Of a stretch of 37,397 nucleotides of DNA, positions 2,804 through 35,932 are shown piece after piece. Under the pieces are notes generated by a model that had not been told where the DNA came from, ran no database searches, and was given only the letters and a program-made list of their open reading frames with translations. Each line of letters opens with the position of its first letter. Position 1 is the first letter of the stretch. Source of the stretch: a virus; IMG/VR virus record IMGVR_UViG_3300033571_016342, positions 1 through 37,397 of that record. The stretch is one strand, 5' to 3'. The translations under genes and the position numbers were made by a program.

Positions 2804-2830
2804 CTTTAGAAAATAAATAATTATACGACT

Positions 2831-2872
2831 CATGTCTTGCATGTCTTGATGTCTTGATGTCTTGATGTCTTG
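2831..2872. repeat. Five tandem ATGTCTTG units
   Basis: CATGTCTTG, CATGTCTTG, ATGTCTTG, ATGTCTTG, ATGTCTTG run head to tail (unit 8-9 bases) and directly precede the 11-base array. The period is not a multiple of three and no reading frame covers it. Confidence 0.85.
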
Positions 2873-2899
2873 ATATCGGTTGACAACTTTCCAGAAAAC

Positions 2900-3030
2900 T
2901 CATCGAACTCTCGTCGAAAGCTCGTCAGATATTCGTCAAACATTCGTCAAGCTTTCGGCTAGTCTTCATCGACTATTCGACTAGTACTCGTCGAGTTTGT
3001 CAAAGTTTGTCAGAAGGCTTGTCAGAAAAT
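2900..3030. repeat. 11-base periodic TCGTCA/TCGTCG array (about 12 units)
   Basis: TCATCG or TCGTCG/TCGTCA-type words begin at 2900, 2911, 2922, 2933, 2944, 2955 (TCGG), 2966, 2977 (TCGACT) and 2988, exactly 11 bases apart, then continue as TGTCA words at about 2998, 3008 and 3020. Consensus is roughly TCGTCRAANNT. One helical turn per unit would put every site on the same DNA face. Confidence 0.8.
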
Positions 3031-3046
3031 TTCCCGTTTCTCGACG

Positions 3047-3103
3047 GAAAAAAATAAATCGCGCTCGCGAAAAAAATAAATCGCTTTTGTATAAAAAATA
3101 AAT
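3047..3103. repeat. Phased A-tracts with TAAATCGC
   Basis: GAAAAAAATAAATCGC occurs at 3047-3062 and 3069-3084, 22 bases apart (two turns), with a third degenerate A6TAAAT at about 3093-3103. TCGCG/CGCGA (3059-3070) forms a small dyad between the first two. Phased A-tracts normally bend DNA. Confidence 0.7.
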
Positions 3104-5081: not shown

Positions 5082-5190
5082 CAAGATGTCTCCTTACCTG
5101 CTGTTCTAATTGTCTGTCAGTTAATTTATACGTTTTTTTTAATTCTTTTGGGGTAGCACTATATAAATCTTGAAACGTTACTTTACTCAT
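5014..5190 (-). CDS. 58-aa protein overlapping its neighbour out of frame
   Basis: ATG 5190 overlaps the portal stop (ATGA) and has GAGGA 5 bases upstream; the frame reads MSKVTFQDLYSATPKELKKT and ends YSTRHKN. Its last 22 codons overlap the start of the next gene by 68 bases in another frame, so one of the two starts may be wrong or the overlap is real coupling. Helical, basic, unrecognised. Confidence 0.5.
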   Translation of the reverse strand: MSKVTFQDLYSATPKELKKTYKLTDRQLEQQVRRHLDGANAEERRSLYEATYSTRHKN

Positions 5191-7262
5191 TGTGTCCTCT
5201 GTTCTTGGTGAAGTTTATGATAAGCTTGGGCATGTTTATGTTGCATATCCATGTGTTTTATAGCGAGATCTGCATTTTTAGCGTAACGTTCTGTTTGAGC
5301 TTTTAGAGCTTGTACAGCTGTTGACGACTCAGATGTGACCGCATTTGCAATAACTTTTTGACGTTCAATTTCAAGTTTGGCCATATCTACAGAAAACTGT
5401 GCTTGATCTCTTTGAGCTTTTTGTTGAAGTTCTGCCATTTTGATTTGAGCCATTTTTTGAGTTGGATCGTTTTCTTGTTGTTGCATAGCTTGTTGTTTTT
5501 GCATTTCATATTCTGCCGTCCATTCTTCTGTGAGTTTTTTGAGTTCTTCAATTCCTTTTCCTTCCATATTATCTAGTATAAATGGGAGACCTTTTTCTGC
5601 TATGAACTGTTGGAATAAAGGTGACATACCCATCATTTCTTTTACCATCATTAAGGTTCGTTGTTTTTGTACTTGGAAAGAAGCTCCTGCCTTAACAATG
5701 ACATTAAGAACGTTAGTATCAAAGTCCATTGGTAAGCCGTCTTCTTGATTGATTTTAATATATTCTCTGGCCCCATCAGGAGACAGTACAGGTATAGTTC
5801 TAGGAGTGACATAGTATTTAGGTAAGAGATCCACATAAATTTGACAAGCGCGTTGCCAGCCTTGTAAGTAGCCAACAATATATGGCATCGCGGCGGCATT
5901 AGATTGGGTGGCGGCCTCAACAATTGCAATCCCTGAAAGTTGATTGTCATTAATACCAAGAGAAGCGTCATACGAGCCCAAGACATTTTGAATAAGCGAA
6001 TCTGCGCCTTGAAAAGCATTTGTAATTTCTGGAGGAGCAGGAACTCTTTGAATTTCACGTATTGGGTTTGCGATTGGAAGTTCTGGGTTTGATTCATGTA
6101 CAGAGTTAAATACAAGTGTTGAGGCTTTTTGTACATTTTTATAAGCTTCTTGGAATTCATCCTCTTTAGGTATAGCCTCTTTTGCTACCATAAATTTATG
6201 TTGTATCGTATTTTCTATTTCATTTGCAAGGGAGATTCCAGCATAATTTTTAAGTCTTTGTGCGCCTTTAGCGTGATAAACATAGGGTCTTGTTACTTGG
6301 CGAACATTCCCAGATGTTGGGGTTTTTAAAGTTACTGAAGATCCATCAACAAAAATTAATGGTAAGAATGAATAATCAGTTTCTTCATATTCAAGTATTT
6401 GATTTTCCATTAAACGATAACGTACAATTTTTTCAAGTCTGGTTTTCCGGGGTTTACCTATGTATTTTGGTGGAAGCTCTAATCTATCCCATTCTTTAAT
6501 CATTTTATTGTACTTATCTAAAGTCATGGTTTTGCCATCACGAAGTTGTACAATTTGTGTTTCTTGAAATTTTTTTTCGTAAAAATCTACTACTAATAAT
6601 ATATTGGTTGAATCATTTTGGTAAGACCAATTAAAACCTGCAAAATCTCGTCTAAAAGAAATAGTATCTATTTTTACATCTGGGTATTGGTCTTTAAAAT
6701 CATCTTCAGTCATTGGAAAAAGTTCAAAACAAAAACGTCCATCACCTTTATGTGAGTATCTAGCTAATGGGTCAAAGCCGCACAAAGTAGGATCATATGC
6801 TCTTTCTATATTAATTACTTGATTCATAGACATAGGGTTTTCATAATCTGTTGTAACTTTTAATACAGAAAAACCGCCAGATAGTAAGTCTTTATATACT
6901 TCATAGCGCGTATTATGGTTTTGTGGGTCAAGTAATACATGCCTTAAATGTTGTTCTATTACTTTTATAGTAAGTGGATCTGCTTTATCTTGATCATCTG
7001 CAAGAACTAAAACATCTGGCTCTTGTTTAGAAAACTCACCCAAAAGGCGTGAAATGTAAGCTTCTAATACATTAAACTCTAGTTGGGGGCGTGATAATGT
7101 TTCAAGCATTGTAATATCATCTGCTGACAAGCAAGATTCAAATACAAAACGTCTATATTCATTAAATCTGTCGTAATTTTGTTTAAAATAATCATGTGAC
7201 TTTCTTACAGTCGACTTGATTCGTTCTAATCGATTTTGATAGCGTTGTGCTACTTTTTGCAT
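5187..7262 (-). CDS. Portal protein, P22 gp1-like
   Basis: 691 aa (P22 portal 725 aa). The N-terminus (RIKSTVRKSHDYFKQNYDRF... FNVLEAYISRLLGEFSKQEPD) is characteristic of the P22-type portal family. A long Gln/Lys-rich helical tail (about 570-691, repeated QQ, QKA, KHAQ) corresponds to the C-terminal barrel helix of P22 gp1. The dodecamer forms the DNA channel and the tail attachment point. The gene lies between TerL and scaffold as in P22, separated by small genes. The ATG at 7262 abuts a perfect SD hairpin (7263..7278). Confidence 0.93.
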   Translation of the reverse strand: MQKVAQRYQNRLERIKSTVRKSHDYFKQNYDRFNEYRRFVFESCLSADDITMLETLSRPQLEFNVLEAYISRLLGEFSKQEPDVLVLADDQDKADPLTIKVIEQHLRHVLLDPQNHNTRYEVYKDLLSGGFSVLKVTTDYENPMSMNQVINIERAYDPTLCGFDPLARYSHKGDGRFCFELFPMTEDDFKDQYPDVKIDTISFRRDFAGFNWSYQNDSTNILLVVDFYEKKFQETQIVQLRDGKTMTLDKYNKMIKEWDRLELPPKYIGKPRKTRLEKIVRYRLMENQILEYEETDYSFLPLIFVDGSSVTLKTPTSGNVRQVTRPYVYHAKGAQRLKNYAGISLANEIENTIQHKFMVAKEAIPKEDEFQEAYKNVQKASTLVFNSVHESNPELPIANPIREIQRVPAPPEITNAFQGADSLIQNVLGSYDASLGINDNQLSGIAIVEAATQSNAAAMPYIVGYLQGWQRACQIYVDLLPKYYVTPRTIPVLSPDGAREYIKINQEDGLPMDFDTNVLNVIVKAGASFQVQKQRTLMMVKEMMGMSPLFQQFIAEKGLPFILDNMEGKGIEELKKLTEEWTAEYEMQKQQAMQQQENDPTQKMAQIKMAELQQKAQRDQAQFSVDMAKLEIERQKVIANAVTSESSTAVQALKAQTERYAKNADLAIKHMDMQHKHAQAYHKLHQEQRTQ

Positions 7263-10075: not shown

Positions 10076-10310
10076 TTTCTTCAGTAAATTCCGGAGGTGT
10101 GATTACGCAAAAATGAGTAATTCTTGAAAAATCAAATAAACAATCGACTGCTGGAGCATCATTTAATTCAAGTATCCATTCATCTAAATAATTGCTTTCA
10201 TTATAGTCAAAAGTATATTGTGCAACAAAATAAAAATTTGTATCTGTTTTAATTACTAATCTTGAATGATAAGGCGGTTTTGTTTCTGGGTATTTATACC
10301 ATTTCATCAT
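10059..10310 (-). CDS. Small protein, DUF551-like layout
   Basis: 83 aa from ATG 10310, whose ATGA overlaps the previous stop. Reads MMKWYKYPETKPPYHSRLVI, then beta strands around FYFVAQYTFDY, and ends SRITHFCVITPPEF. The order W-x-P-x-x-P near the start and I-T-H near the end recalls the DUF551 family of small phage/bacterial proteins of unknown function. Located between HTH gene and terL. Confidence 0.55.
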   Translation of the reverse strand: MMKWYKYPETKPPYHSRLVIKTDTNFYFVAQYTFDYNESNYLDEWILELNDAPAVDCLFDFSRITHFCVITPPEFTEENADRF

Positions 10311-10657
10311 TGGTTCTCTTTGTCTATTTTGTTTTTTAGCCAATTATCTACTTCTTCTTTTATCCAAAAAACTCTTCTTGGTCCAAATTGTTTTTGTTTT
10401 GGAAATTCACCTTTTTTAATTAGCATATAAATAGATGCGCTATTTAAAGTTGTGTATTCTTTTACTTGTTTTAAACTTAAATATTTTGGTAAATTGGCTG
10501 CGTTATTAGGATTTTTTTGGTCAGTAGTATTAGATATTTGTTCAATTTTTTTATCAAATCTATTTAAATATGCGTTTAATTCTAATAACTTTTCTTCTAG
10601 ATTGCCTAATTTGTTAATTATTAACATTTGCAAATCTTTTTCAGATAGATGTTTCAA
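10307..10657 (-). CDS. HTH_17/AlpA-like protein with N-terminal coiled coil
   Basis: 116 aa. Residues 1-40 form a predicted coiled coil (LIINKLGNLEEKLLELNAYL); residues 58-110 are an AlpA-type helix-turn-helix with YLSLKQVKEYTTLNSASIYM, then IKKGEFPKQ.. and the wing RRVFWIKEEVDNWLK. The start appears to be TTG 10657, since AAGGA lies five bases upstream and the next ATG is ten codons in. Lying between TerS and TerL, it may have a packaging role as well as, or instead of, transcription control; this is inference. Confidence 0.65.
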   Translation of the reverse strand: MKHLSEKDLQMLIINKLGNLEEKLLELNAYLNRFDKKIEQISNTTDQKNPNNAANLPKYLSLKQVKEYTTLNSASIYMLIKKGEFPKQKQFGPRRVFWIKEEVDNWLKNKIDKENQ

Positions 10658-19210: not shown

Positions 19211-19256
19211 ACCCGCCAAGCCTCTTAACAATGCTCAAATCGTGCGGGTATTTTTT
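19211..19256 (+). terminator. Probable terminator of the recombination operon
   Basis: ACCCGC (19211-19216) and GCGGGT (19244-19249) pair over a long 27-base loop, then ATTTTTT. The loop is large for an intrinsic terminator, hence moderate confidence, but the position after ssb and before convergent genes fits. Confidence 0.5.
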
Positions 19257-19562: not shown

Positions 19563-21443
19563 TTACATGCCATAAAGAAAAAAATCACCCGTAACAATAG
19601 ACCCTGATGTAAATCTTATTCTTATTGCATTAATACTTCCGGTTACTGTGTTATAACCCACTCCTTGATTTACATGAACGGCAGTACTAGAATTAAGTAT
19701 GTTTGTAGACTGGCCGCTATACCCTTTGGAAAGATTTGAGTTGCAATTATAAATACGAAAATTACCAGAGCCTTCTAACATATAACTTCCAGCTATACTA
19801 TTTAAACCAAATGCTGTTGTAAAAGTGTCTACATTGTCAGTACTAAAAGTTCTTCTAACAACTGCAGCATTATAACCTGTTGTTATCCAAGTTGCTCCAT
19901 TATCAATACTTAATTCTAAAATAAAATCTGCGGTAACTGGCGTACATCTTACACCATTATAAAATAAAACTAGTTGATCAAAGTTTTTTACAAAATTATT
20001 AAAAATTATAGAAGCACTAGTACTTGCAGTTTGATTGCCTATTAAATATAAATTTGCACCGCCACCGCTAGGACTTGCCCAAGTGCCATCACCACGCCAA
20101 AAAGTAGTAGCACTAGCACTAGTTCCTGAGTTAAGATTTGCCACAGGTAAATTTCCTGACACACCATTTGCAAGATTTACTGTATCTGATGTTAAAGCAA
20201 TTGTGCCTGTATTATCCGGAATTGTTAATGTTCTAGTTGCTAACGTATTTGCAAAATTAAATTGGGTTATATGTTGATTTGCTGTTCCTGATGTAACTTG
20301 CAGTGCGCCATTAGCTCTAGTTGTTCTTAAATTTATAATTCCTGTGCCTTTAGCTGAAATATTCAATCCTATATCGGTATCTGCCCCAGCTGCATTAATT
20401 TGTGGTGCATTTCCAGTTGTATTATTAAACAACTGAATGTTATTTACAGCAAAACCAACATAGTTAAAACCAAGTATTGTTTCACCAGTAATACTAGTAA
20501 TTTGAGTAGGTTGTCTTATAACTCCAGTTAATCCTGTTAATTGAGTAATATTACTATTTGCGCCGCTTGTTGCATATCCTGGGATAGTAAGCCCTGAAGG
20601 CAAAGAAGTTGTAATAGTTGGCGTTCCAAATCCGTCTGTGGTTGCAATAGCATTTGGTGTTGTTGCAGCAATATCCAACTGACTTAGTGTTGAATAAACT
20701 AAACCACCATTTATTGGAGTTAGATTAGCACCGGTACCACCTTTATCAAGGCTTAATGGTAAAGATAAAAGCGGTTGACCAAATTGAATAAAACTAATCG
20801 GATCCGTTCCTATCGTTGTAACAGTAGTGCCGCGAAGCCATCCAGTACCAGTTTGTGTTGAGCCATATAAAACTGCTATTAGTCCAGAGTCATTAATATT
20901 AACAGGAGTATCAAAATCAGCTGAACGAGTTAATACCCAATTAATTGCTCCATCCCCGACAGTAGTCAAATCATATACACCATTTTCTTCTTGATTGGTT
21001 TGATTTTTTACAAGAACTCTTTGATTTATAGTAGGACTATATAAATCTACCGAAAAGGCTGCTGGTGGAGCATTATTTATTAATGTTGCTCCTACACCTG
21101 CAACACCATTATCGTAATCTGCTGAAAGATTTGTAGTTGTAGCGCACACACAAGGCTCATTAGGGCCAAGGCCACCTGCAACAGAATCAACATAAAATTT
21201 ATTGGCAGCATCACTTGAGGCGCTTGGAACATTCAAATTTGTAATTTGGTTTGTACCCATATTTAAATCGCCATTAATGTTGCAATCATTAAATACAACA
21301 TTTGATGTTGTTGACAAATCTTGATCTAAATTAACATTAGTAGTTACTGTAAGTGTGCCTACATTACTTACACCAGTACCACCTTGAGCAGGTGATAATG
21401 GGCTTGTGTCATTAAGATTTATACTGTTTTGTTCTATGGTCAT
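19563..21443 (-). CDS. Tail fibre/receptor-binding protein (626 aa)
   Basis: Begins [20 protein letters not shown] then [13 protein letters not shown], a GGTG fibre motif seen again at about residue 240 ([20 protein letters not shown]). A middle domain (about 90-215) has the familiar phage-fibre wording [42 protein letters not shown]. The beta-rich C-terminal about 150 residues ([14 protein letters not shown]..., ending GDFFLYGM) differ from those of the upstream paralogues, suggesting a distinct receptor-binding tip. ATG 21443 chosen (AAGGA 9 bases upstream; earlier starts lack one). Last large gene of the array. Confidence 0.75.
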
Positions 21444-21453
21444 CTTAAAGTCC

Positions 21454-22095
21454 TTAAATAATGTTAATATTACCCTGCGGTCCGCCAACGCATGTCCATA
21501 TGGCGTTTGCTTGTGCACAAACTAAAATAATTGAATCATATCGATTTGTAGATTCTATATACCCTGTAGTAACTGTACTGACTAAACTACCGACTCTTAA
21601 CTGATAATTACCAGAGTTTATACGCCAACCACCCAATCCCAATCCTTGTATTTCAACGCGGTCACCAACTTGTGATGTAGCTGGCATTGTAAAAACAACT
21701 TGTGAGTTATTATTTGCTGTATACCCATTGTTAGCATCAATAATTTGTGTAGTTCCGGTAACTTCTGTCCAAGGAAAACCAGGTACTGCTCCAGAAATAG
21801 GAGCCCATATGGCGGTAGTTGCTGTACCAGCTGTTACACAAATATATAAAATTTGTCCTGTTGTATCCCAACATAATTGATAAGGTGTGCCTGCAACATT
21901 TCCATTAGGATCGCCTATTGAAGATTTAATAATTTGATTTTGTGCAAGCGTTAATAGCTGCCCTACCGTAGTTTGAACAGATAAACCAACATTAGATGAT
22001 GAAATATATCCTTGTACTAAATACAAAATGTCGGAGTCATTTATATTTGTTATACTAGGTAGATCTGTAATTCTTTCTTGATTAGTCGATCCCAT
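21454..22095 (-). CDS. Tail-fibre-module protein 5 (213 aa)
   Basis: The N-terminal part ([22 protein letters not shown]) resembles phage fibre or baseplate hub attachment segments, the middle carries [20 protein letters not shown], and the C-terminal about 100 residues ([20 protein letters not shown] ... [17 protein letters not shown]...) is the module shared by five consecutive proteins here. Probably a beta-sandwich fibre tip or decoration domain. AAGGA Shine-Dalgarno. Confidence 0.65.
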
Positions 22096-22105
22096 GGTAC
22101 TTTCC

Positions 22106-22690
22106 TTATACTACTGTTAAATTACCTACTGAATTTCTTACAACCCATTCAGTGTTTGCTACTGTACATAAAAGCTCTATTTGATCATATCTATTAGTTG
22201 ATGATAAAGAACCACCTACACCTGCGGTAGAACTTACATTACCAAAATGAATTAATTGACCAGCATTTTGTGCTATAGACCAACCACCCGCACCATAACC
22301 TGCGATACTAATTTCAGTTCCAAAAGCTGCTGTTGCAGGTAAGGTAAAAGTAACTAAACCGGCATTGTTTGCAACGTAAGCTGCATCTGCTGCCATAGCC
22401 TGTGAAGTACCAGTAACATCAGTCCAAGATGCACCGCCCGTTGCAGCGATAGTAATTGAGCCTGCCGCATTTGTAATTGCTATGCCACTACCAGCTGTTA
22501 ATGTAGCTGCAACAGGAGCGGTTCCTGTATCTCCTATCAATAATTGTCCATCAGTTAATGCACTTGACGCTGTAATAGCACCAGAGCCATTACCAAGTAA
22601 AATCCCGTTTTGTGTTAAAGTTGAAGCACCTGTACCGCCATTTCCTACACTAAACGGGGTAGGTGCATTTATACTATTGTTCGTTGCCAT
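22106..22690 (-). CDS. Tail-fibre-module protein 4 (194 aa)
   Basis: Two parts: an N-terminal fibre repeat (SVGNGGTGASTLTQNGILLG, LLIGDTGTAPVAATLTAGSG, ITNAAGSITIAATGG) and the shared C-terminal module (WTDVTGTSQAMAADAAYVAN ... FTLPATAAFGTEISIAGYGA..., ending NSVGNLTVV). The shortest member with both parts. Its Shine-Dalgarno lies in a perfect hairpin loop (22693..22707). Confidence 0.65.
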   Translation of the reverse strand: MATNNSINAPTPFSVGNGGTGASTLTQNGILLGNGSGAITASSALTDGQLLIGDTGTAPVAATLTAGSGIAITNAAGSITIAATGGASWTDVTGTSQAMAADAAYVANNAGLVTFTLPATAAFGTEISIAGYGAGGWSIAQNAGQLIHFGNVSSTAGVGGSLSSTNRYDQIELLCTVANTEWVVRNSVGNLTVV

Positions 22691-22692
22691 CT

Positions 22693-22707
22693 TGACACTC
22701 CTTGTCA
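22693..22707 (-). promoter_or_regulatory. SD-in-loop hairpin of fibre-module gene 4
   Basis: Minus strand TGACA-AGGAG-TGTCA, perfect 5-bp stem with AGGAG in the loop, 2 bases before the ATG at 22690. Shares the TGACA/TGTCA stem with the portal hairpin. Confidence 0.6.
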
Positions 22708-22715
22708 GTTATAAA

Positions 22716-24644
22716 TTATGTAAATGAGTTAAATTTACTATCAGAAGCGTAACTTTCTACTATCCAAACAGTATTTGCACTTGTGCAGATTAAAGTACAT
22801 GCATCTTTTGAATGTTTTGCGGTCATAGTTCCGCCAGTTGATGTACTTGATGTGCTAAAAGTTACCGTTTGGCCTGTGTTAGCTTGTACAACCCAAGCAG
22901 CCCCACCACCTCCAACGATAGTTATCCTATCGCCTACCGCGCAAGTTGCAGGTAAAGTTATCGTTGTTGCTGAAATATTTTGTGTAATGTAACGCACATT
23001 TACTAAAGCATTTTGCGTAGTTCCTGTTATAGTTGATGTTGTCATTACAGGACCAATTGTATCTATCGTAATAGAATTAGCCGCATTAGTTACTGTTATA
23101 TATGTGCCTTGTGTTAAATTTGCAGCTGCAGGAGTTCCTGCTGAAGATCCAATTATTAGCTGCCCATCGCTCATTGAACTTGATAAAATTGGTGAGCCGT
23201 TAGTATCTGTAACCATAGATGCACGTACAGTTGTTGTGCCTGTTATAAATAGTGGTACTAAATAAGCAGTACCGTTTATATTAGGTCTCCAATAACCACG
23301 CCCAGTTCCACCACTATATATGCTGCCATCGCCTCTAAAACCAACCGGATTTCCTGTAGAGCCAAAGCTTATACCAGGACCATTATCAGCGCTTGTATTT
23401 CCTGTTGAAGCTCTTCCAATAGATCCTGCACCAATTGCAATAGTCCCGCTTGCAGAGGCGCTATTAACTGATACTTGATAGCCAAACAATGAATTGTTAG
23501 AGCCTGTTGTTATTGCAACTGCACCACTAACTGCGGTAACCCCTGCTGCATAACCAAAAACAGAATTATTTGATCCAGTAGAACAGCTTGTCATTCCAGT
23601 TCCGCTAATCACGTGGTTAAAATCAGCACTGTTTAAAGCAATTAACACATTTTGGCCAATACCAATATTGTTAGTTAAAACTCCACCAGCATTTCTCCCA
23701 GCAGCTTGACCGATAAAAACATTTTGTCCACCCAAAGCACCGCCAAAAGTACGTAGGGCTTCAAACCCAATCGCAACATTCCCATCAGTAGAAGCATTTC
23801 CAGTTAATGCAAAACTACCTACTGCAACGTTTTGCGCACTTGAACCCGCCGCCCTTAAAGCTTGCGTTCCAATAGCAACGTTATTAATCCCAGTAAGTAC
23901 CGCCGAACCTAAGGCTTGAAACCCCACAGCCACACAATTTGATATAGCAGTTCCAGGAAGTACTGTTAATGCACCTGAACCGACTGCTACGTTTTGAGTG
24001 GATGATGTAGCAATATTTAAGGCAGCTGAAGATCCAACAGCTGTATTATTGGCACCCGTAGTTACAGCATTTAATGCTTGATACCCGATTCCGGTGTTTC
24101 CGGTTCCAGCTACCGCAGTATTATTAACAGCTTGGAAACCTAAACAAGTATTAAAATTTCTAGTACCAAAACCTGCGCCAACTGTAACTCCGTTAAAAGC
24201 AAAATCACTATTTATTGAGCTTGTTCCGCTTACAGCTGTGCCTGTTGTAGCATAAAATGCTAACTGTTGAGCATTTCCTGAATTTACAGTCCCACCGCCA
24301 CTAGTTGCAGCAATCGTAATAGATCCTGCTCCATTTGTTATACTAATGTTAGTGCCTGCAACTAGATTAGCTGCTGTCGGTGTAGATCCTGTAGAACCTA
24401 TGATAAGTTGACCATTCGTCATAGAGGAACTGTAAGTTGGCGTGCCAGATGAGTTAGTTACTAAAACTGCTGAGTTTGTAGAAATAAGATCTTTTACTGA
24501 GCCAGAAGTATCAGCAGCTTGCAATAAATTATTAACAATAAAAGAGCCGTTAGCACTAGTTAAACTTGGTTGTGCAACATCTGTGGCATTTTTTGTTATT
24601 GCTGTGCCAGGCGTTCCGGTTCCTAATATATTTATTGTAGGCAT
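22716..24644 (-). CDS. Large tail fibre with YadA-head-like repeats (642 aa)
   Basis: Starts like the next upstream gene (MPTINILGTGTPGTAITKNA TDV). Two copies of the SSSMTNGQLIIGSTGSTP / AANL.AGTNISITN.AGSITI unit (about 73-115 and 480-525) flank a central region (about 150-420) of GNNTAVGSSA-, NVAVGSGAL-, NVAIGFEAL- and NNSVFGYAAG-type repeats. This is the left-handed beta-roll motif of YadA/Hia autotransporter heads, also found in some phage fibres. It ends with the shared C-terminal module in diverged form. Trimeric adhesin-like fibre contacting the host surface (inference). Perfect SD hairpin upstream. Confidence 0.75.
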   Translation of the reverse strand: MPTINILGTGTPGTAITKNATDVAQPSLTSANGSFIVNNLLQAADTSGSVKDLISTNSAVLVTNSSGTPTYSSSMTNGQLIIGSTGSTPTAANLVAGTNISITNGAGSITIAATSGGGTVNSGNAQQLAFYATTGTAVSGTSSINSDFAFNGVTVGAGFGTRNFNTCLGFQAVNNTAVAGTGNTGIGYQALNAVTTGANNTAVGSSAALNIATSSTQNVAVGSGALTVLPGTAISNCVAVGFQALGSAVLTGINNVAIGTQALRAAGSSAQNVAVGSFALTGNASTDGNVAIGFEALRTFGGALGGQNVFIGQAAGRNAGGVLTNNIGIGQNVLIALNSADFNHVISGTGMTSCSTGSNNSVFGYAAGVTAVSGAVAITTGSNNSLFGYQVSVNSASASGTIAIGAGSIGRASTGNTSADNGPGISFGSTGNPVGFRGDGSIYSGGTGRGYWRPNINGTAYLVPLFITGTTTVRASMVTDTNGSPILSSSMSDGQLIIGSSAGTPAAANLTQGTYITVTNAANSITIDTIGPVMTTSTITGTTQNALVNVRYITQNISATTITLPATCAVGDRITIVGGGGAAWVVQANTGQTVTFSTSSTSTGGTMTAKHSKDACTLICTSANTVWIVESYASDSKFNSFT

Positions 24645-24647
24645 TAT

Positions 24648-24663
24648 GATTCATCCTTGAATC
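24648..24663 (-). promoter_or_regulatory. SD-in-loop hairpin of the 642-aa fibre gene
   Basis: Minus strand GATTCA-AGGA-TGAATC, perfect 6-bp stem with tetraloop AGGA, 3 bases before the ATG at 24644. Core CAAGGATG as in portal and gp10. Confidence 0.65.
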
Positions 24664-24671
24664 TGTTAAAA

Positions 24672-25349
24672 TTAAACTATAGTTAAATTGCCTGTTGGAA
24701 TACCTGTCCAAGTGGTATCTGCAGCAGTACAAATCAATCTTATTCCGCCACCTTGTTCTGTAGCTGTTAGAGAACCTCCAACGCCAACAGTAGTAGTTGA
24801 GCCAACCACTAAAACACTTTGACCCGCATTTTGAGCTAAAGTCCAAAGACCTGCACCTGCTCCTACTATTTCCATAACTGTTCCAACTGCAGCAGTTGCT
24901 GGCAATGTAAATGTTATTAAAGCAGCGTTGTTAGCAATATAGCCATTATTTGCAACCATTGTTTGGCTTGTGCCAGTTACATTAGTAAAAGAAAAACCAG
25001 CAGCTCCAGTCGCGGCTATAGTTATTGAGCCCGCAGCATTTACAATACTTATGTTACTGCCAGCTGTAAGTGTAGCCGCTGTAGGCGTGGATCCTGTAGA
25101 GCCTATTATTAATTGACCATTCGTCATTGTGCTTGAATATGTAGGGGTGCCTGTTGAATTTGTAACAAGTACTGCGCTATTTGTTGATGCAAGATTTTGT
25201 ATTGTTCCGTTGGTATCTGCTGCAATTACTAAATTGTTAGTTGTAAAAGCACCGTTTACTGAAGCCACAACTGATTTAGTATTATCAGTTACGTTTTTAG
25301 TAATTGCTTGCCCTGGGGTTCCAGTGTTAATTATATTAATAGTTGCCAT
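24672..25349 (-). CDS. Tail-fibre-module protein 2 (225 aa)
   Basis: MATINIINTGTPGQAITKNV is nearly the same start as the 642-aa fibre. It then has the unit STMTNGQLIIGSTGSTPTAA / TLTAGSNISIVNAAGSITI and the C-terminal module (FTNVTGTSQTMVANNGYIAN ... FTLPATAAVGTVMEIVGAGA..., ending IPTGNLTIV). It is essentially the 642-aa fibre without the YadA-like insertion. ATG 25349 preferred over a TTG two codons earlier because of Shine-Dalgarno spacing. Confidence 0.65.
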   Translation of the reverse strand: MATINIINTGTPGQAITKNVTDNTKSVVASVNGAFTTNNLVIAADTNGTIQNLASTNSAVLVTNSTGTPTYSSTMTNGQLIIGSTGSTPTAATLTAGSNISIVNAAGSITIAATGAAGFSFTNVTGTSQTMVANNGYIANNAALITFTLPATAAVGTVMEIVGAGAGLWTLAQNAGQSVLVVGSTTTVGVGGSLTATEQGGGIRLICTAADTTWTGIPTGNLTIV

Positions 25350-25352
25350 TTT

Positions 25353-25368
25353 CAATCATCCTTGACTG
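25353..25368 (-). promoter_or_regulatory. SD-in-loop hairpin of fibre-module gene 2
   Basis: Minus strand CAGTCA-AGGA-TGATTG: six pairs including one G-T wobble, tetraloop AGGA, 3 bases before the ATG. The core CAAGGATG again. The wobble suggests the structure rather than the sequence is kept. Confidence 0.55.
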
Positions 25369-25373
25369 TTAAG

Positions 25374-25856
25374 TTAAAAAATATCTAAATTCCCTACTGG
25401 GATGCCCGTAAAAAAAGAATTATCAGTTGTACAAATTAATTGGACGCAATCTGTTGGTAAAGTACTTTGTAAATATCCCGTAGTTCCTAAGGTGCTAGAT
25501 AACCCTTGGATATTAATTTGTTGACCAATATTTTGATTTATTTTCCATCCATTTATTGCACCAATAATCGTAATTGTTTCTCCAGCTAAAATAGATGTAG
25601 GCAAAGTAAAATTTAATATACCACCAGAATAATTTGCTATATACGCCTTATTTCCAATCATAACTTGTGTTGCTGTAGTAACAGGAGTATAAACAATGAC
25701 TGGTAATTGGGCTATTATAGAATTTTTTAATTGCTGCCAGGTAATAGCATAATCATCAGCTGCTGTGTATGGGCTTCTTCCCAAATATAATAAATCCGTA
25801 TTTATTGCACTTGATGCAGGATTAGCTGTAAAAACTTGAAAAATATTTGATGACAT
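25374..25856 (-). CDS. Tail-fibre-module protein 1 (160 aa)
   Basis: MSSNIFQVFTANPASSAINT, LYLGRSPYTAADDYAITWQQ (a short attachment segment similar in plan to the 213-aa protein), then the shared C-terminal module in diverged form (NKAYIANYSGGILNFTLPTS ... LICTTDNSFFTGIPVGNLDI F). First of five tandem paralogues. ATG 25856 abuts a perfect 8-bp SD hairpin; a TTG two codons earlier falls within the stem and is unlikely. Confidence 0.65.
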   Translation of the reverse strand: MSSNIFQVFTANPASSAINTDLLYLGRSPYTAADDYAITWQQLKNSIIAQLPVIVYTPVTTATQVMIGNKAYIANYSGGILNFTLPTSILAGETITIIGAINGWKINQNIGQQINIQGLSSTLGTTGYLQSTLPTDCVQLICTTDNSFFTGIPVGNLDIF

Positions 25857-25884: not shown

Positions 25885-26064
25885 TTATAACAGTAAGAAA
25901 TTCGTACTGTCTAATAATAAAAAATTACCACCATTAAGTAATAAAAAATCCCCTGATACAGGTGGCAAGGGTGGAGGCAAATTACCGGATTCACCAGCAA
26001 AAACTCCTAAAACCCCAAAATTATAATTTGGAGAAAAAAACCAATCACGAATATTGTACAGCAT
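25885..26064 (-). CDS. Small tail protein with FLLL repeats
   Basis: 59 aa from ATG 26064 (GGAG 9 bases upstream, inside the preceding gene, 20-base overlap). MLYNIRDWFFSPNYNFGVLG, a Pro-rich hinge NLPPPLPPVSG, then three repeats DFLLLNGG-NFLLLDST-NFLLL. The repeats look like a short beta-solenoid or a hydrophobic anchor at the C-terminus. Unrecognised; probably tail-associated. Confidence 0.5.
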   Translation of the reverse strand: MLYNIRDWFFSPNYNFGVLGVFAGESGNLPPPLPPVSGDFLLLNGGNFLLLDSTNFLLL

Positions 26065-26398
26065 AAAGCATAACTCCAACTTGTGCCTGTGCATTACTAG
26101 TTATCATGCTTATATTGTCTCCAGCATTTAAAGTACGTGCCGCAGGATTCATTTCAACAGTACATGGTTGTAACGTTTGTAGTGTAGGTGCTACAGCAGT
26201 TGCCCCTGTAAAATCAACCCAAACAGCAGTGCCTGGCTGATATGAAAAAACCGCAATCCAAGTAGGGTAATTATCTGGAACTGTTAAAGATGCATCAATA
26301 CCATTAAACAATAAAACATTCCATTTATCTTCGGCACTTTGAGGGGCATAAGCATTCATCCCCTGTACGTCTCTTCCAAATCTTAATAATGTTGACAT
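26045..26398 (-). CDS. Small virion/tail beta protein, unknown
   Basis: 117 aa beginning MSTLLRFGRDVQGMNAYAPQ, beta-rich, with SLTVPDNYPTWIAVFSYQPG and a C-terminal MITSNAQAQVGVMLYAVQYS. I recall proteins with the same MxTLLRFGRDVQG start and VP-x-x-(Y/F)P-x-WIA motif in tail-fibre regions of other phages, of unknown function. Follows the collar fibre by 9 bases. Confidence 0.6.
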   Translation of the reverse strand: MSTLLRFGRDVQGMNAYAPQSAEDKWNVLLFNGIDASLTVPDNYPTWIAVFSYQPGTAVWVDFTGATAVAPTLQTLQPCTVEMNPAARTLNAGDNISMITSNAQAQVGVMLYAVQYS

Positions 26399-26407
26399 AT
26401 TCTTTCC

Positions 26408-28633
26408 CTATAATTTAATAAATACATTGTAAAAAGTTGTAGGCTGCATAGTATTATGGGGTTTATTTCCGCCCGTTGAATTTAGATTTAAAGCACTTCC
26501 GCCATCAGTTGTAAAACCTGAGCTACCACCGTATGCAGGTCTTGCTGCACCAATGTTTTGATAAACTAATCTAGGGTTTGTGTGACTATGAGATGGCATC
26601 TCACCAATGCTTAATCTATGAAAATATTCACCAACAGTTACACCAGAAACTTGACTCAATATAGTTTGAGTTCCGGCTCCTGCATTTATATAAGCTAAAA
26701 TGGGGAATCCAGCTAAAGCATTAGTATATGTTGTTGCAAGATTAATTGTATTTCCTGCTATATTAGCTACATAAAATATAGTATTTGCTGTCAAATTACC
26801 AGGTAAGGTTCCTGATGTTTTTACTGTGACAGGCATGCCAACATAATAAGAAGAGCCTGATTGAACATTTAATATAAACTGTGTATTTAAACTATGAACT
26901 CCTGTGCCCGTTGCAGTAAATGTAATAGGATCGCCGTCTTGAGTAGTTGATAAGTTAAAAGTATTACCTGAAATGTTTTGTATATAGTAAGGTGTACTGG
27001 CTGCCAGTGGAGTTGGCAATATGCCAGTACTACTTACTGTAACAAGAGTGCCATTTATTAATCCTGTTATAGAAGGAACAGTTACAGTAGTAGATGAAGC
27101 GGTTACTGTAAAAGTTTGAATAACATTAGTGGCTGTAAAAGTTTGACTATATATATCAGGTAACAAAGCGTCAATGGGCACATTTCCTGCTAATACTTTA
27201 CCAAACATAGGTGTTAACGCTATGTATTTTTGATTTGTAAAGTCTTGATAAGCTGATGTGCCATAATTTGTTAAATTAGTATCAGGCGGAGTGGGGTTTA
27301 AAACATTATCATACATTTGACAAACAGGATTAAAATTTGCGCCTGTATCAAACCGTTTTGCATAATTCCATAAAAGATTATACAAAGGCCACGTATCATA
27401 ATTGTTTCTTGCCGTAGGTTTTTTTACACCAATAGATGTAGCAGGCGAATACCCTATTGTGCCATCATTCATTGGAACCCATCCAAATGGATAAAAAGCA
27501 TTAATGCTAGACCTTATATCCCCAGTTCTTGGGCTATTAATTACAGAGTCAACCATATCATATGTTGAAAAACTTAGTGTAGGCGCAACACTTCCCAAAT
27601 ATACAGATGGCATAGCAAATTCAACTTCTAGTAATTGCCCTGCAGGAAACCCTATAAGCAAATAAAATCCATCATCGCCACCCTCGCCTACATTAACAGA
27701 CACTATTGGAAAAATTCTGTTTAATTCAAATTGCTGCCAATCACTACCTAAAACAAAAACATCTGTTTGCAAATCACCGCCTAAATCCCCGCCGGTTCCT
27801 GTTGATTGATACATGGACATAATTAATTGAGTTGCTATTCCGTTAGTAACCCTTGCTTGGATTGTAGCAACATAAGGAGTGTTAATTAAGTTTGTGATAT
27901 GTAATTGAACAGGAATAGAAAAAAATTTAATTGTTTCTGCTCCAGTTGCTGTACAACTTAGCTTGCAGTAATATTCTGGGGTAACATCACCTACAAGTTG
28001 TGATGAAGAGCTAGAAGGATTTCCGGGAAATTGCGCAAATGTAACTTCTTCTACAGCCCCTCTTGCATCTTTGCAATAATTAATATCAGGCAACATAAAC
28101 CCGTCATGTTGACTTGGAGCTATTGTTTCATAATAAATTGTTAATGGTGAATAAAAATATGGCGTTTCTTTTGTTGGGTTTGTAACATCAATTGATTCTA
28201 TATTTCTCCAAAACCCATTATTAACAATTAAGTTTTGATATGTAGGTATTTCATTAGGACCTATAGTTTCACCAGGCACAAAAGGAAAATAAGCTCTTGT
28301 AAATTGTCTTTGACCATCAGAGTTATCAACTGTTATATAATATGGTTCTGAAATTTGACTATCAGTTTCTGAATATGGATAAAATCCGGGAATAACATCT
28401 ACCCCATTTATATCTTGAATGGTTCCGGCTGCTGAAAGCCTCATAGGGTTAGGCAAAGGCAAATAATTATAATTGCCTGGTTGTCCTGTTTGATAGTACC
28501 AGTTTTTTAATGTAGTTCTTGAATTGTCTGCATAACAAGTAACTATACCTGCAGCTAGCGGTAAACCGTTTTTATCTATCAACGCTTCTTGAAGAGTCGG
28601 AGAAAATATTAAAAGATTTGGGATAATAGCCAT
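26408..28633 (-). CDS. Tail fibre with collar-type C-terminus (741 aa)
   Basis: The N-terminal segment (LIFSPTLQEALIDKNGLPLA AGIVTCYADNSRTTLKNWY) is a widely shared fibre start. The middle has the tail-collar fold landmarks FGWVPMNDGTIGYSPATS and DTWPLYNLLW. The C-terminus has GEMPSHSHTNP and GGNKPHNTMQPTTFYNVFIK, the conserved H-x-H and N-(T/M)-x-P-T elements of phage collar/short-tail-fibre domains. Two related inserts around 495-620 carry LPTPLAASTPYYIQNISGNT and LPGNLTANTIFYVANIAGNT. Receptor-binding or fibre-attachment role. SD hairpin upstream. Confidence 0.8.
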   Translation of the reverse strand: MAIIPNLLIFSPTLQEALIDKNGLPLAAGIVTCYADNSRTTLKNWYYQTGQPGNYNYLPLPNPMRLSAAGTIQDINGVDVIPGFYPYSETDSQISEPYYITVDNSDGQRQFTRAYFPFVPGETIGPNEIPTYQNLIVNNGFWRNIESIDVTNPTKETPYFYSPLTIYYETIAPSQHDGFMLPDINYCKDARGAVEEVTFAQFPGNPSSSSSQLVGDVTPEYYCKLSCTATGAETIKFFSIPVQLHITNLINTPYVATIQARVTNGIATQLIMSMYQSTGTGGDLGGDLQTDVFVLGSDWQQFELNRIFPIVSVNVGEGGDDGFYLLIGFPAGQLLEVEFAMPSVYLGSVAPTLSFSTYDMVDSVINSPRTGDIRSSINAFYPFGWVPMNDGTIGYSPATSIGVKKPTARNNYDTWPLYNLLWNYAKRFDTGANFNPVCQMYDNVLNPTPPDTNLTNYGTSAYQDFTNQKYIALTPMFGKVLAGNVPIDALLPDIYSQTFTATNVIQTFTVTASSTTVTVPSITGLINGTLVTVSSTGILPTPLAASTPYYIQNISGNTFNLSTTQDGDPITFTATGTGVHSLNTQFILNVQSGSSYYVGMPVTVKTSGTLPGNLTANTIFYVANIAGNTINLATTYTNALAGFPILAYINAGAGTQTILSQVSGVTVGEYFHRLSIGEMPSHSHTNPRLVYQNIGAARPAYGGSSGFTTDGGSALNLNSTGGNKPHNTMQPTTFYNVFIKL

Positions 28634-32307: not shown

Positions 32308-32706
32308 TTAAGTTAATGTAAATGTATACCACTCTGCACTTTGAATCGTTGGCGGTGTGGTCGGATTATATTTAATTATAAACTGTTTTGGGACTCGATT
32401 TGTAGAGTCAAAAACAGTTTTGCCTGAAATATCAGGAATATTTATTTGTTTTGTGTTTGTAGGGTCGTTTTGTGGCAAAGGCTTTCCTATGTAAGGCTGG
32501 TAAATATTCCTAATAGTTGTAATCTCATTTTGTGTTAATGCTGGAAATAATATTCCTTCGTTACTAAAATTTTCTTGTAATGCTTGAAAAAGAGACCCTA
32601 ACCCTAAATCAAATAAAGGATTTATATTACCCTGAGAATCAACTATTTGTTGTTCTCTAGGATAATCCGGGAATATACTTTGGGGTTTTTTTGTTTGTTG
32701 TGTCAT
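32308..32706 (-). CDS. Small tail protein following gp10, unknown
   Basis: 132 aa: FPDYPREQQIVDSQGNINPL, FDLGLGSLFQALQENFSNEG, then KPLPQ..., PDISGKTVFDSTNRVPKQFI and a C-terminal strand. In P22 the next gene after gp10 is the tail needle gp26; this protein is shorter and lacks a long coiled coil, so an adaptor or a plug is more likely. Overlaps the gp10 stop by 4 bases, so it is translationally coupled. Confidence 0.55.
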   Translation of the reverse strand: MTQQTKKPQSIFPDYPREQQIVDSQGNINPLFDLGLGSLFQALQENFSNEGILFPALTQNEITTIRNIYQPYIGKPLPQNDPTNTKQINIPDISGKTVFDSTNRVPKQFIIKYNPTTPPTIQSAEWYTFTLT

Positions 32707-34526
32707 GTTCTCACCGATACTACGCCATTAGTAACCACTATCCGACCCTGACTCCAAAACTTAACTTGTATTACTAAATCATTTACAAGACCTAATTGCC
32801 ACCATTGTAATTTATTTTTACGTTTTCCTATGCCCGGCAAAACGTTCGGCATATCGCTACCAAAAGTAGCTCCGCCATCAGTTGATATTGATAAATCAAC
32901 CCTTGGGGTTGTATAAATATATTTATTTTGTTGAGCTATCAAATAACTATAATTTGGATTTGGTAATTGTTGTTGCATTACTAATTTTTTTGTTTTTGCT
33001 TGATTAACAAGAATACTTCCATTTTGCAAAAGAATATCAATATTGGTTCCAGTTCCATTAGTAATAAATGTTTGTTGAAATACAATTTTTTTATTATCTT
33101 GTGTAATTATTCCATTACCATCTTGGGTAATCATACTTACATATTGATTTTGGGTAATAATCAATTTACCATCTTGGGTTATTAGTCTTATTGGACCTGT
33201 AGACTGTTTTTCATAATCAGTTTCTCCAGATTCAATTGTAAATCCAACATCATTCGCTACAAAATAATCTTGTGTAGCTAATCTAATATTTTTACAAGTT
33301 CTCATTCTTGGGATAATGTGGTCTTGAACAATACCAATTGAATTATTATCTTGATAAATAGTAAATACAGTATCAAATATATACATATTTCCTGTATTTT
33401 TTGACACAAAATAATATTGATTTTTAAAAAAGGCAACCTCTGCGGCAATAAAATAATTTAAATTTTGATCTGCTGCATGATAAATCTTATGTGTGCCATC
33501 AGGTAAAAAGTCTACAAATAACGATAAGTTATCTTTATAAAAATTTATATGATAAAACAAATGCCCGTCTTGCCTAAACAAAAATCCTTGTGAGTCCTCT
33601 GGAAATTGTAATTGACCAAATAAGTAATCAATACCATCTGTCGTAATCTTTTGAGGCATGCCACCTGTCGAATACATTAATATAGGACCTGATTTTTCAT
33701 TTGACGCAAGCCACACAACAATCTCATCCATATAAGCTACTGATGCTGGAGATTTACATCCATAATCAATATTAAATTGATTAGTGCGTTGATATGGAAA
33801 CAGTTGTGCTCCTGTATTAAACCAAGCCTCACTTACAGTTTGCCCCATGACAAAAATCATATTACCTTTAGATGGAAATCTAACTACTGCTTGTATTTGA
33901 TCAGGTTTTGTTTGCAATAATCCTATAGACTGCGCATCATCTGCCCAGTTTAATCCATCATTTTCTCCTGATAAACGCCACGTATTTGTTGCAGGAGGAG
34001 AGTAAAAAGAATCTTGACGCGCTGCACAAATAAAATAAGTATCATGAAATGTAATAAATCCAGGCGTAAATTTAATTGTATTTACAACTTGAAACCTAGA
34101 AGGTAAAGTAGGATCGTACAAATACAGTTGTTCATTATCTGATATTAAAATTTGAGGCTTATTGTTTTCAGCTATATATACAACACCAGAATTACTTTGT
34201 AATTGACCAATTAAAATAACTTGTGAGGTTGTTACAGTTAAAGTTTGTTGATCAAATACAATATCTATTAAAAAAACATTTTCATCAATAACAGTAATAA
34301 TTTTATTTAATTTAGAAGACGTAAAAATACCACGCCCAGTTGCTCCATTTCTTAATCTTGCAGAACTTAATGCAATTTTATATCCTGCGTAAGGAACTAA
34401 AAAATCATCGCTTTGAAACATATTATATGTTTTTTCAATAGAAATTTTAGGATATCTTCCAAAAGTAGAGCTGCCAACAATATTTAAATCGACTGACGTA
34501 TAATTTTGTCCGCGTTTTACAGGCAT
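32703..34526 (-). CDS. Packaged-DNA stabilisation/tail hub protein, P22 gp10-like
   Basis: 607 aa (P22 gp10, 472 aa). The N-terminal SSTFGRYPKISIEKTYNMFQ SDDFLVPYAGYK, FICAARQDSFYSPPATNTWR and the propeller-like repeated strands FIFVMGQTVSEAW follow the gp10 family. It closes the portal-gp4 channel and holds the tail. Residues about 440-520 hold an insertion of repeats (LITQDGKLIITQ, MITQDGNGIITQDNKKIVFQ) explaining much of the extra length. The ATG at 34526 abuts a perfect 7-bp SD hairpin. Confidence 0.85.
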   Translation of the reverse strand: MPVKRGQNYTSVDLNIVGSSTFGRYPKISIEKTYNMFQSDDFLVPYAGYKIALSSARLRNGATGRGIFTSSKLNKIITVIDENVFLIDIVFDQQTLTVTTSQVILIGQLQSNSGVVYIAENNKPQILISDNEQLYLYDPTLPSRFQVVNTIKFTPGFITFHDTYFICAARQDSFYSPPATNTWRLSGENDGLNWADDAQSIGLLQTKPDQIQAVVRFPSKGNMIFVMGQTVSEAWFNTGAQLFPYQRTNQFNIDYGCKSPASVAYMDEIVVWLASNEKSGPILMYSTGGMPQKITTDGIDYLFGQLQFPEDSQGFLFRQDGHLFYHINFYKDNLSLFVDFLPDGTHKIYHAADQNLNYFIAAEVAFFKNQYYFVSKNTGNMYIFDTVFTIYQDNNSIGIVQDHIIPRMRTCKNIRLATQDYFVANDVGFTIESGETDYEKQSTGPIRLITQDGKLIITQNQYVSMITQDGNGIITQDNKKIVFQQTFITNGTGTNIDILLQNGSILVNQAKTKKLVMQQQLPNPNYSYLIAQQNKYIYTTPRVDLSISTDGGATFGSDMPNVLPGIGKRKNKLQWWQLGLVNDLVIQVKFWSQGRIVVTNGVVSVRT

Positions 34527-34564: not shown

Positions 34565-34753
34565 CTATTGATTTCTTTTGCCGAAGAGATAGCCAATTAT
34601 TAAGGTGATTATCGGTTGAACCATGTCTTGTAATTTTTCAAATATATCATCCTTAGGGTCGATCATTTCCGACCCTATTCCAACCAATGATATAATAAAA
34701 CAAAATATTAAAATTGTTTTAGCAACTTTAAGCAATGGATCTTTATCATTCAT
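34565..34753 (-). CDS. Two-TM small membrane protein (holin candidate)
   Basis: 62 aa with two transmembrane segments (about 10-28, VAKTILIFCFIISLVGIGS, and 45-58, VQPIITLIIGYLFG), a short acidic loop (DPKDDIFEKLQD) and a basic end GKRNQ. This fits the size and topology of class II holins. No lysin gene is adjacent (the endolysin is elsewhere), so assignment is tentative. Start overlaps the preceding stop (ATGA). Confidence 0.55.
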   Translation of the reverse strand: MNDKDPLLKVAKTILIFCFIISLVGIGSEMIDPKDDIFEKLQDMVQPIITLIIGYLFGKRNQ

Positions 34754-35478
34754 CTTGAATCTATCAATTTAGCTTGTTCTATATAATATTGTAATAAATC
34801 TTTACTATATGTACTAGCTAAACATTCTAATTCATGTGAAAAATCATTATCGTACCAATTTATTTGATAAACGATTCCATCCTCATTATTTCCATAATTC
34901 CAATGAGTGGTAATTTTATTATTAATACTTTTTAAAACCTCACTTTCAGGAATACTAATTGAAAGATGACTGGTTTTTATATCTATTTGTTCATACATGC
35001 AGTAACTTTTATTATCTAATTCTAGTGCAACAACAACTCCAGACCAATGCCCATTAAAAGAGTTAGATGGCGCATACGCTAAAGTTTTGATTGAATTTGG
35101 TAAAGTAATGAAATTCCATGATAGCTTTAAGTTTTTATAATCTTTATGCCATTTAGTGCTTTGATACGAGTCATCATTTGATGACAAATCATTGTCTACA
35201 TTTTTTTTTAAGTTTATTAAATCATAAATTGTAGGATTATCCGAAGTTGCATATCCATTTTGCGCCATTTCTAAAACGCCTTTATTATGTGTTTTTAATA
35301 AATCTTTAGGCAAATTTAATTGATTATTTTTTATTATATGTACTCCATCTCCCAAATATACTATATTTTGACTTTTTAAATAATCTTGCATTTTTTCTTT
35401 TAATGATGCCTCTTTTTCTAACAAAGTAGCGGCATGTGTAACCATACTAATTGCGCATAAAATTAATATTTTTTTCAT
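34750..35478 (-). CDS. Secreted/periplasmic protein, unknown (242 aa)
   Basis: ATG 35478 (GGTGGGA upstream, one base after the preceding stop) gives a clear signal peptide MKKILILCAISMVTHAATLL with probable cleavage after THA. The mature part is acidic/neutral with KWHKDYKNLKLSWNFITLPN, FNGHWSGVVVALELDN, and a Cys pair (SYCMYEQ, LECLAS). No family recognised. A secreted moron-type protein between head-tail genes; could modify the cell envelope, exclude superinfection or be displayed on the host. No domain evidence. Confidence 0.65.
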   Translation of the reverse strand: MKKILILCAISMVTHAATLLEKEASLKEKMQDYLKSQNIVYLGDGVHIIKNNQLNLPKDLLKTHNKGVLEMAQNGYATSDNPTIYDLINLKKNVDNDLSSNDDSYQSTKWHKDYKNLKLSWNFITLPNSIKTLAYAPSNSFNGHWSGVVVALELDNKSYCMYEQIDIKTSHLSISIPESEVLKSINNKITTHWNYGNNEDGIVYQINWYDNDFSHELECLASTYSKDLLQYYIEQAKLIDSR

Positions 35479-35479
35479 T

Positions 35480-35860
35480 TTAATCCCACCATCCATCGTA
35501 AATTGAACAATCATCAACATAAGTTATTTGAGAAGTATATGATGACCCATTAGGTAAATATAATATATGATACGCGTATACATTCCACTTGCCATTAATT
35601 ATTTTAGGAGCCTCTCCCCAGTGCACCGCAGCATTACGCCATGTGTATTTTGGGAAAGTATCTATTAAACATTTTTGTTGACCATCATAATTATGATAAG
35701 AGATTATTCTTGACCAAAAAGCGTGCCCTGCCCACCATGTAATAGACTCGTTATTAACACAATTAGCTCTACTATGATGAGTTAATTTATAAAGACCGCT
35801 GTGAGAGTTTATCGCAGTAAGTATCATCCCTAATGCAATTCCCTTTTTAATTTTTTCCAT
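35480..35860 (-). CDS. Secreted Trp/His-rich protein, unknown (126 aa)
   Basis: ATG 35860 (GGAGG 5 bases upstream) leads into a signal peptide MEKIKKGIALGMILTAINSH SG. The mature region is rich in Trp, His and Tyr (SITWWAGHAFWSRIISYHNY, YTWRNAAVHWGE, YDGWWD) with three Cys. The aromatic/His content suggests a carbohydrate- or metal-binding secreted protein. It forms a two-gene set with the following secreted protein. Not recognised. Confidence 0.6.
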   Translation of the reverse strand: MEKIKKGIALGMILTAINSHSGLYKLTHHSRANCVNNESITWWAGHAFWSRIISYHNYDGQQKCLIDTFPKYTWRNAAVHWGEAPKIINGKWNVYAYHILYLPNGSSYTSQITYVDDCSIYDGWWD

Positions 35861-35932
35861 ATTTGCCTCCATGTTTCGGGGCAAATGATAAAATATTAAA
35901 TTACTAAATACAATTAATTATATGGTCGCCAA

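Follow-up and report, generated by a model that had tools for sequence, protein, structure and literature searches.

Five tandem genes on the minus strand of an uncultivated phage, predicted to be a P22-like podovirus, encode proteins that end in the same module of about 105 residues. With slightly more belief than doubt, we read this array as a modular host-recognition cassette, in which several short fibres are displayed together and carry exchangeable ends of the XD1 fold. The analysis covered the whole of the virus contig IMGVR_UViG_3300033571_016342, a stretch of 37,397 bases with no larger genome behind the record, hereafter called the window.

The phage and its tail locus

The classification as a P22-like podovirus follows from three predicted proteins: a P22-type portal (5187 to 7262, minus strand; PF16510, E = 5.5e-97), by which the clade of relatives was defined, a small terminase of the Sf6 type (PF20901, E = 9e-24), and an Hc3-like head-closure protein (32703 to 34526, minus strand; phrog_578, E = 5e-30), which starts the tail gene block. 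A large terminase, a DNA-ejection-like protein and a coat protein conserved across the clade are also encoded, and the gene order suggests that the contig is circularly permuted and represents a nearly complete genome. Among cultured phages, the best portal matches reach only 22-24% identity. At DNA level, no close relative with the array intact was found, and the portal match at 87% lies on a contig of 6.4 kb. Two module-bearing loci lie within MAGs called Sulfuricurvum and Mucilaginibacter; neither is claimed as a host, because both loci belong to phage contigs that share these tail genes and may be misbinned.

On the strand opposite to the array and the structural genes lies a gene for a RecE-like exonuclease, and the genes after it read as RecT-type annealing and SSB-type genes. 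This run ends in a single abiF RNA (window positions 19212-19249, plus strand; RF03085, 58.3 bits against a gathering score of 37, E = 1.5e-8 over the window), which is followed by a short T-run. No Abi_2 protein was found in the record, nor in the five relatives with solo abiF RNAs, which score over the cut-off in G006, G008 and G029 and just under it in G033 and G030. Since an RNA with abiF motifs from C. difficile neutralises the AbiF toxin (PMC12373285), a testable idea is that the phage RNA acts as a decoy antitoxin. Elsewhere in the window, an AlpA-type helix-turn-helix protein (10307-10657, minus strand; PF05930, E = 4e-13) adjoins the small terminase gene, and an int-alpA RNA occurs in one relative (L270, 6752-6817). 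The non-coding gap between the scaffold and portal genes (2820-3060) contains short repeats that are degenerate (gatgtcttg, ctcgtcga), is somewhat more stable when folded than shuffled sequence (z = -2.3) and has no Rfam match.

In portal-clade relatives, the tail genes follow a conserved order: gp4-like, Hc3, two small proteins, ejection-type proteins, G741, H117 and then the fibre genes, the exception being G012, in which two genes, one of them module-bearing, lie between G741 and H117. G741 (26408 to 28633, minus strand) is a conserved large tail protein with a collar-type C-terminus by weak matches; its N-terminal 150 residues are conserved in 20 genomes and, on the question of P22-type head binding, gave a weak match to a tail spike (E = 1.1). 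H117 (26045 to 26398, minus strand), immediately upstream of the array in a position conserved in relatives, is a small beta protein that matched only generic small beta-barrels and is a candidate base or adaptor. H117 subtypes, compared between the window (26045-26398) and relatives including L255, L260, L269 and L270, are decoupled from other tail genes: G003 and G020 are 88% identical in Hc3 versus 48% in H117, and G009, G019 and G020, which lack a class I fibre gene (classes are described below) after H117, share one H117 subtype (86-97%). Two small ORFs (34750-35884, minus strand), one of them with a signal-peptide-like start, lie between the gp4-like gene and Hc3; the pair has no Pfam match, recurs elsewhere in two relatives (L266, 4995-6145; L278, 8042-9105) at 25-44% identity and looks like a mobile two-gene cassette.

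The fibre genes at this locus vary among relatives in number and architecture. Other proteins encoded there carry a Gly_rich_2 C-terminal domain (PF21722, E = 7e-16), one is pectate-lyase-like (PF12708, E = 4e-13), and several match tail-fibre families, which together mark the site as a predicted host-recognition locus. The mid-domain of the Gly-rich class III proteins was considered as a divergent copy of the module and rejected (profile comparison probability 1.7%), despite weak hmmsearch scores.

Five tandem genes and their N-terminal ends

The five genes, with the sizes of 160, 225, 642, 194 and 213 residues and the positions given in the earlier note, were recovered in full. All five frames are open and start with ATG, the gaps between them measure 10-27 bp, and an AAGGA-type ribosome-binding site precedes each gene. 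Read by their N-terminal ends, the proteins fall into four classes. A160 (25374 to 25856, minus strand, like all that follow) joins a class I end of about 58 residues (NIFQVFTANP...TDLLYLGRSPY) to the C-terminal module of predicted XD1 fold. B225 (24672 to 25349) and C642 (22716 to 24644) have class IV ends (TINIINTGTPGQAITKN...IIGSTGSTP...AGSITIAAT in B225); B225 goes on directly to the module, and C642 continues with a YadA-head-like repeat stalk (residues ~130-420), which matches virion-structural and tail-spike families, then a second IIGS unit and the module. D194 (22106 to 22690) combines a class III end (MATNNSINAP...GQLLIG) with the module, and E213 (21454 to 22095) a class II end of about 105 residues (ITDLPSITN...DILYLVQGY...GDPNG...W). 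Directly after E213 comes F626 (19563 to 21443), a sixth fibre gene in the row, which has tail-fibre family matches and differs from the five in its end, lacking the XD1 module. Some fibre families matched by proteins of the array locus carry head or virion structural annotation.

The IIGSTGSTP/AAGSITIAAT units that had been noticed in three proteins are indeed common to B225, C642 and D194; A160 and E213 represent two other N-terminal types. The unit bears a weak likeness to the Pgp3 N-terminal unit (E = 0.025 for Pgp3 structures), and a Pgp3_N-type stalk unit (PF20858) in D194 stayed below the cut-off (19 bits against 27, E = 0.0015). The class II end matched no known virion anchor clearly, the other ends having been checked less thoroughly, and its comparison with the A160 end gave no support for homology. 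Relatives have orthologues of classes I, II and III, and class I, in most genomes that have it, is the first gene after H117; class IV was seen here only in the window. The ends of B225 and C642 are the closest pair of the array, and their identity (71% of residues, 66% of bases), dN of 0.27 and saturated dS of 1.94 (dN/dS ~0.14) indicate that the pair is old and under purifying selection.

Scans of viral contigs with three array proteins and one from a relative yielded about 160 loci bearing the module. Among the 19 portal-clade relatives of at least 33 kb, two have no copy, four have one, ten have two and three have three; in 50 further records, picked for carrying the module and with the count of G035 corrected for a terminal repeat, one, two, three and four copies occur in 20, 18, 9 and 3 records. 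These counts are lower bounds, since contig ends cut some arrays. The five copies of the window are the highest number seen, and rows of two to four are ordinary in the clade. The view that phages seldom keep so many paralogues in a row therefore fits the number five and has to be tempered for the clade, where two or three copies are the norm and four occur. We found no literature on tandem fibre paralogues in uncultivated podoviruses.

Fold and evolution of the shared module

That the five proteins share a C-terminal module, put earlier at about 100 residues, was borne out by a 46-row profile, which detects five copies in the record and no more (E = 6e-31 to 7e-47), and by pairwise local alignments, in which the copies are ~30-55% identical over 90-108 residues and score 9.5-32 standard deviations above shuffles. 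The C642 copy is the most divergent and is followed by a short tail; A160, B225 and E213 end at the module. The terminal W of the motif first described for the module holds in the other proteins and fails in A160, which ends in F. Across 284 copies, the module core and a GxGAGGWxIxQNxGQ segment are strongly conserved. The module belongs to no Pfam or PHROG family; two queries against 50,697 cultured phage records gave one clear match, in a Microcoleus phage, and there is a weak sequence match to CpaA repeats (E = 0.0013).

An AlphaFold model of D194, built on an 80-row alignment, reached a pLDDT of 89 overall and of ~97 over the module. When this predicted structure was superposed on known ones, the module matched a KP1 baseplate protein (Z = 12.9), CBA120 TSP4 (7rej; Z = 12.1, 2.3 A over 98 residues), the C-terminal part of the Pa223 capsid spike (9ny6; Z = 11.4, at ~8% sequence identity), the late part of an Acinetobacter phage tailspike (Z = 10.3), T4 gp9 (1qex; Z = 10.2, 2.5 A over 91 residues), the T4 baseplate protein 5iv5, which we take to be gp10 (Z = 9.6), CpaA (Z = 8.6) and StcE (Z = 6.3). 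The matched residues of TSP4, 79-185, are its domain XD1, and the model thus predicts that the module has the XD1 fold of T4 gp9/gp10 and CBA120 TSP4; XD1 of TSP4 is itself closest to T4 gp9, and XD1-like folds in CpaA and StcE are glycan-binding domains (PMC8825819). The D194 model ends at this XD1-like module, and the XD2/XD3 docking jellyrolls are absent after it. Structural relatives of D194 in BFVD are unnamed proteins of uncultured Caudovirales phages, such as A0A6J5L555 and A0A6J5L220, which are 50-55% identical.

The two parts of the fibre proteins differ in their evolution. Among 13 class II proteins, E213 included, the median pairwise identity is 65% in the N-domain and 50% in the module, and the N-domain is the more conserved part in 71 of the 78 pairs; the corresponding values for comparison are 74% for Hc3 and 66% for the G741 N-end. 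In a tree of 38 modules, class changes were compared with shuffles: class II takes 2 changes versus 12 in shuffles and all classes together 11 versus 19.7, and class I takes 7 changes for 10 rows, at least 4 of them forced by well-supported branches. The modules of B225 and C642 lie on opposite sides of a 100/100 branch despite their 71% identical N-ends. Taken together, these sequence comparisons indicate that the N-terminal ends are stable, conserved like tail structure, and that the modules diverge faster and have been exchanged between classes. The array proteins thus show the pattern of modular receptor-binding proteins, in which the N-end is more conserved than the C-end among orthologues and the C-end is exchanged. 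The earlier suggestion that fibre ends are exchanged holds over evolutionary time, as modules have moved between N-end types in the tree; exchange visibly under way inside the genome is not supported, since the array contains no exact repeat of at least 18 nt.

Possible roles of the array

According to the reading that we favour, the five short fibre proteins, together with a sixth that ends differently, would be translated separately from closely spaced genes. The different classes of N-end would go to different or nested tail sites, and since there are four classes of attachment end, these sites would probably be occupied simultaneously. An XD1-type beta-sandwich would close each fibre and form its outer end, where it would most likely contact surface glycans; over evolutionary time, the C-terminal ends would swap between N-ends and between phages, with the N-ends staying fixed to the virion. 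We infer here the incorporation into virions, the trimers, the simultaneous display and the glycan contact. The branched or multi-receptor tail proposed beforehand is plausible in view of the orthologous N-terminal classes, the tail-fibre locus, the Gly_rich_2 and pectate-lyase-like neighbours and an XD1 fold as in TSP4.

Whether the module is a tip or a structural part is the main point of competition. Its C-terminal position, its faster divergence and the other endings found at the locus favour a tip; core conservation, the tiny A160 and precedent favour an assembly domain, which we consider rather unlikely but worth serious weight. In that case, XD1 would close or dock trimers, as in gp9, gp10 and TSP4, and the array would build a branched or bundled adaptor, with short proteins such as A160 as hubs or spacers and receptor specificity residing in C642, F626 or G741. 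In gp10 and TSP4, XD1 is internal, beside protein-protein docking domains, and appears to be a spacer, not a tip; its function in phages is incompletely understood, possibly that of a spacer (PMC8825819). A160 has little beyond its N-end and module, the core and the conserved segment persist across the 284 copies, and at ~50% identity the module could be conserved enough for a structural role. However, each of the five modules stands at the C-terminus, with little if anything after it that it could space apart, the D194 model has no further domain, and family searches gave no gp10 family match in the array. The modules moreover evolve faster than the N-ends, and genes of the same classes elsewhere end in other, tip-like domains.

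It is improbable that the fibres decorate the capsid and not the tail: the Pa223 capsid spike does end in an XD1-like fold, and some matched fibre families are annotated as head or virion structural, but in relatives the array comes after the tail genes for Hc3, ejection and G741/H117 and is well separated from the coat gene in gene order, and its neighbours at the locus resemble tail-fibre or depolymerase genes. We give very little credence to the reservoir for recombinational switching put forward in the earlier note, read here as one gene in use whose tip would be replaced from the others. Modules do move between N-end classes across phages, and a RecE-like exonuclease followed by a putative RecT-type annealing gene is encoded, but the array has no shared exact stretch of 18 nt or more, dS is saturated with the N-ends under purifying selection, each gene has its own ribosome-binding site, and the N-end classes are conserved as separate orthologues. 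Least credible of all are redundant or decaying duplicates with one functional member, since, for all the variation in copy number between relatives, five frames are open, C642 keeps its 642 codons, the B225/C642 ends have a dN/dS of ~0.14, and relatives contain classes I, II and III as well.

Modular host recognition by several proteins with swapped ends is already known, best in the Ackermannviridae, where tailspikes, as in Kuttervirus, have conserved N-ends and exchangeable receptor ends (PMC8432352, PMC11414711). The cassette that we favour resembles CBA120 TSP1-4 and T4 gp10/gp9 in that one phage has several host-recognition proteins with conserved N-ends and exchangeable ends, and its combination of N-end stability and module exchange resembles what was proposed for Kuttervirus tailspikes (PMC8432352). 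It shares the XD1 fold with TSP4, there found in an anchoring protein (PMC8825819) and here predicted from sequence. In CBA120 and T4, XD1 sits close to the N-terminus, with XD2, XD3 and large tailspike domains after it; in the window, by contrast, five proteins of a P22-like podovirus, all but one of them short, have the fold at their C-terminus, and neither XD2 nor XD3 is seen. The Pa223 spike (9ny6) is likewise a phage spike protein that ends in an XD1-like fold, but it is located on the capsid and shares ~8% sequence identity. The beta-sandwich domains of the metalloproteases CpaA and StcE have the same fold and are described as glycan-binding (PMC8825819), but they belong to secreted bacterial proteases with no phage context. 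The novelty lies in the P22-like background, in an XD1 placed at the C-terminus, in the shortness of the proteins and in a copy number that varies at a single locus.

It is possible, though we would not count on it, that this widespread clade turned the XD1 of gp9/gp10, which T4 and CBA120 have as an internal spacer, into a swappable receptor-binding tip, with up to five fibres per tail in different sockets. Host recognition by several fibres has been studied closely in a small number of cultured myoviruses, and the present clade has almost no cultured relatives. Its natural series of arrays, from zero to five copies at one locus, allows the evolution of fibre number, socket and tip to be addressed, and also the question of whether XD1 is a tip or a spacer.
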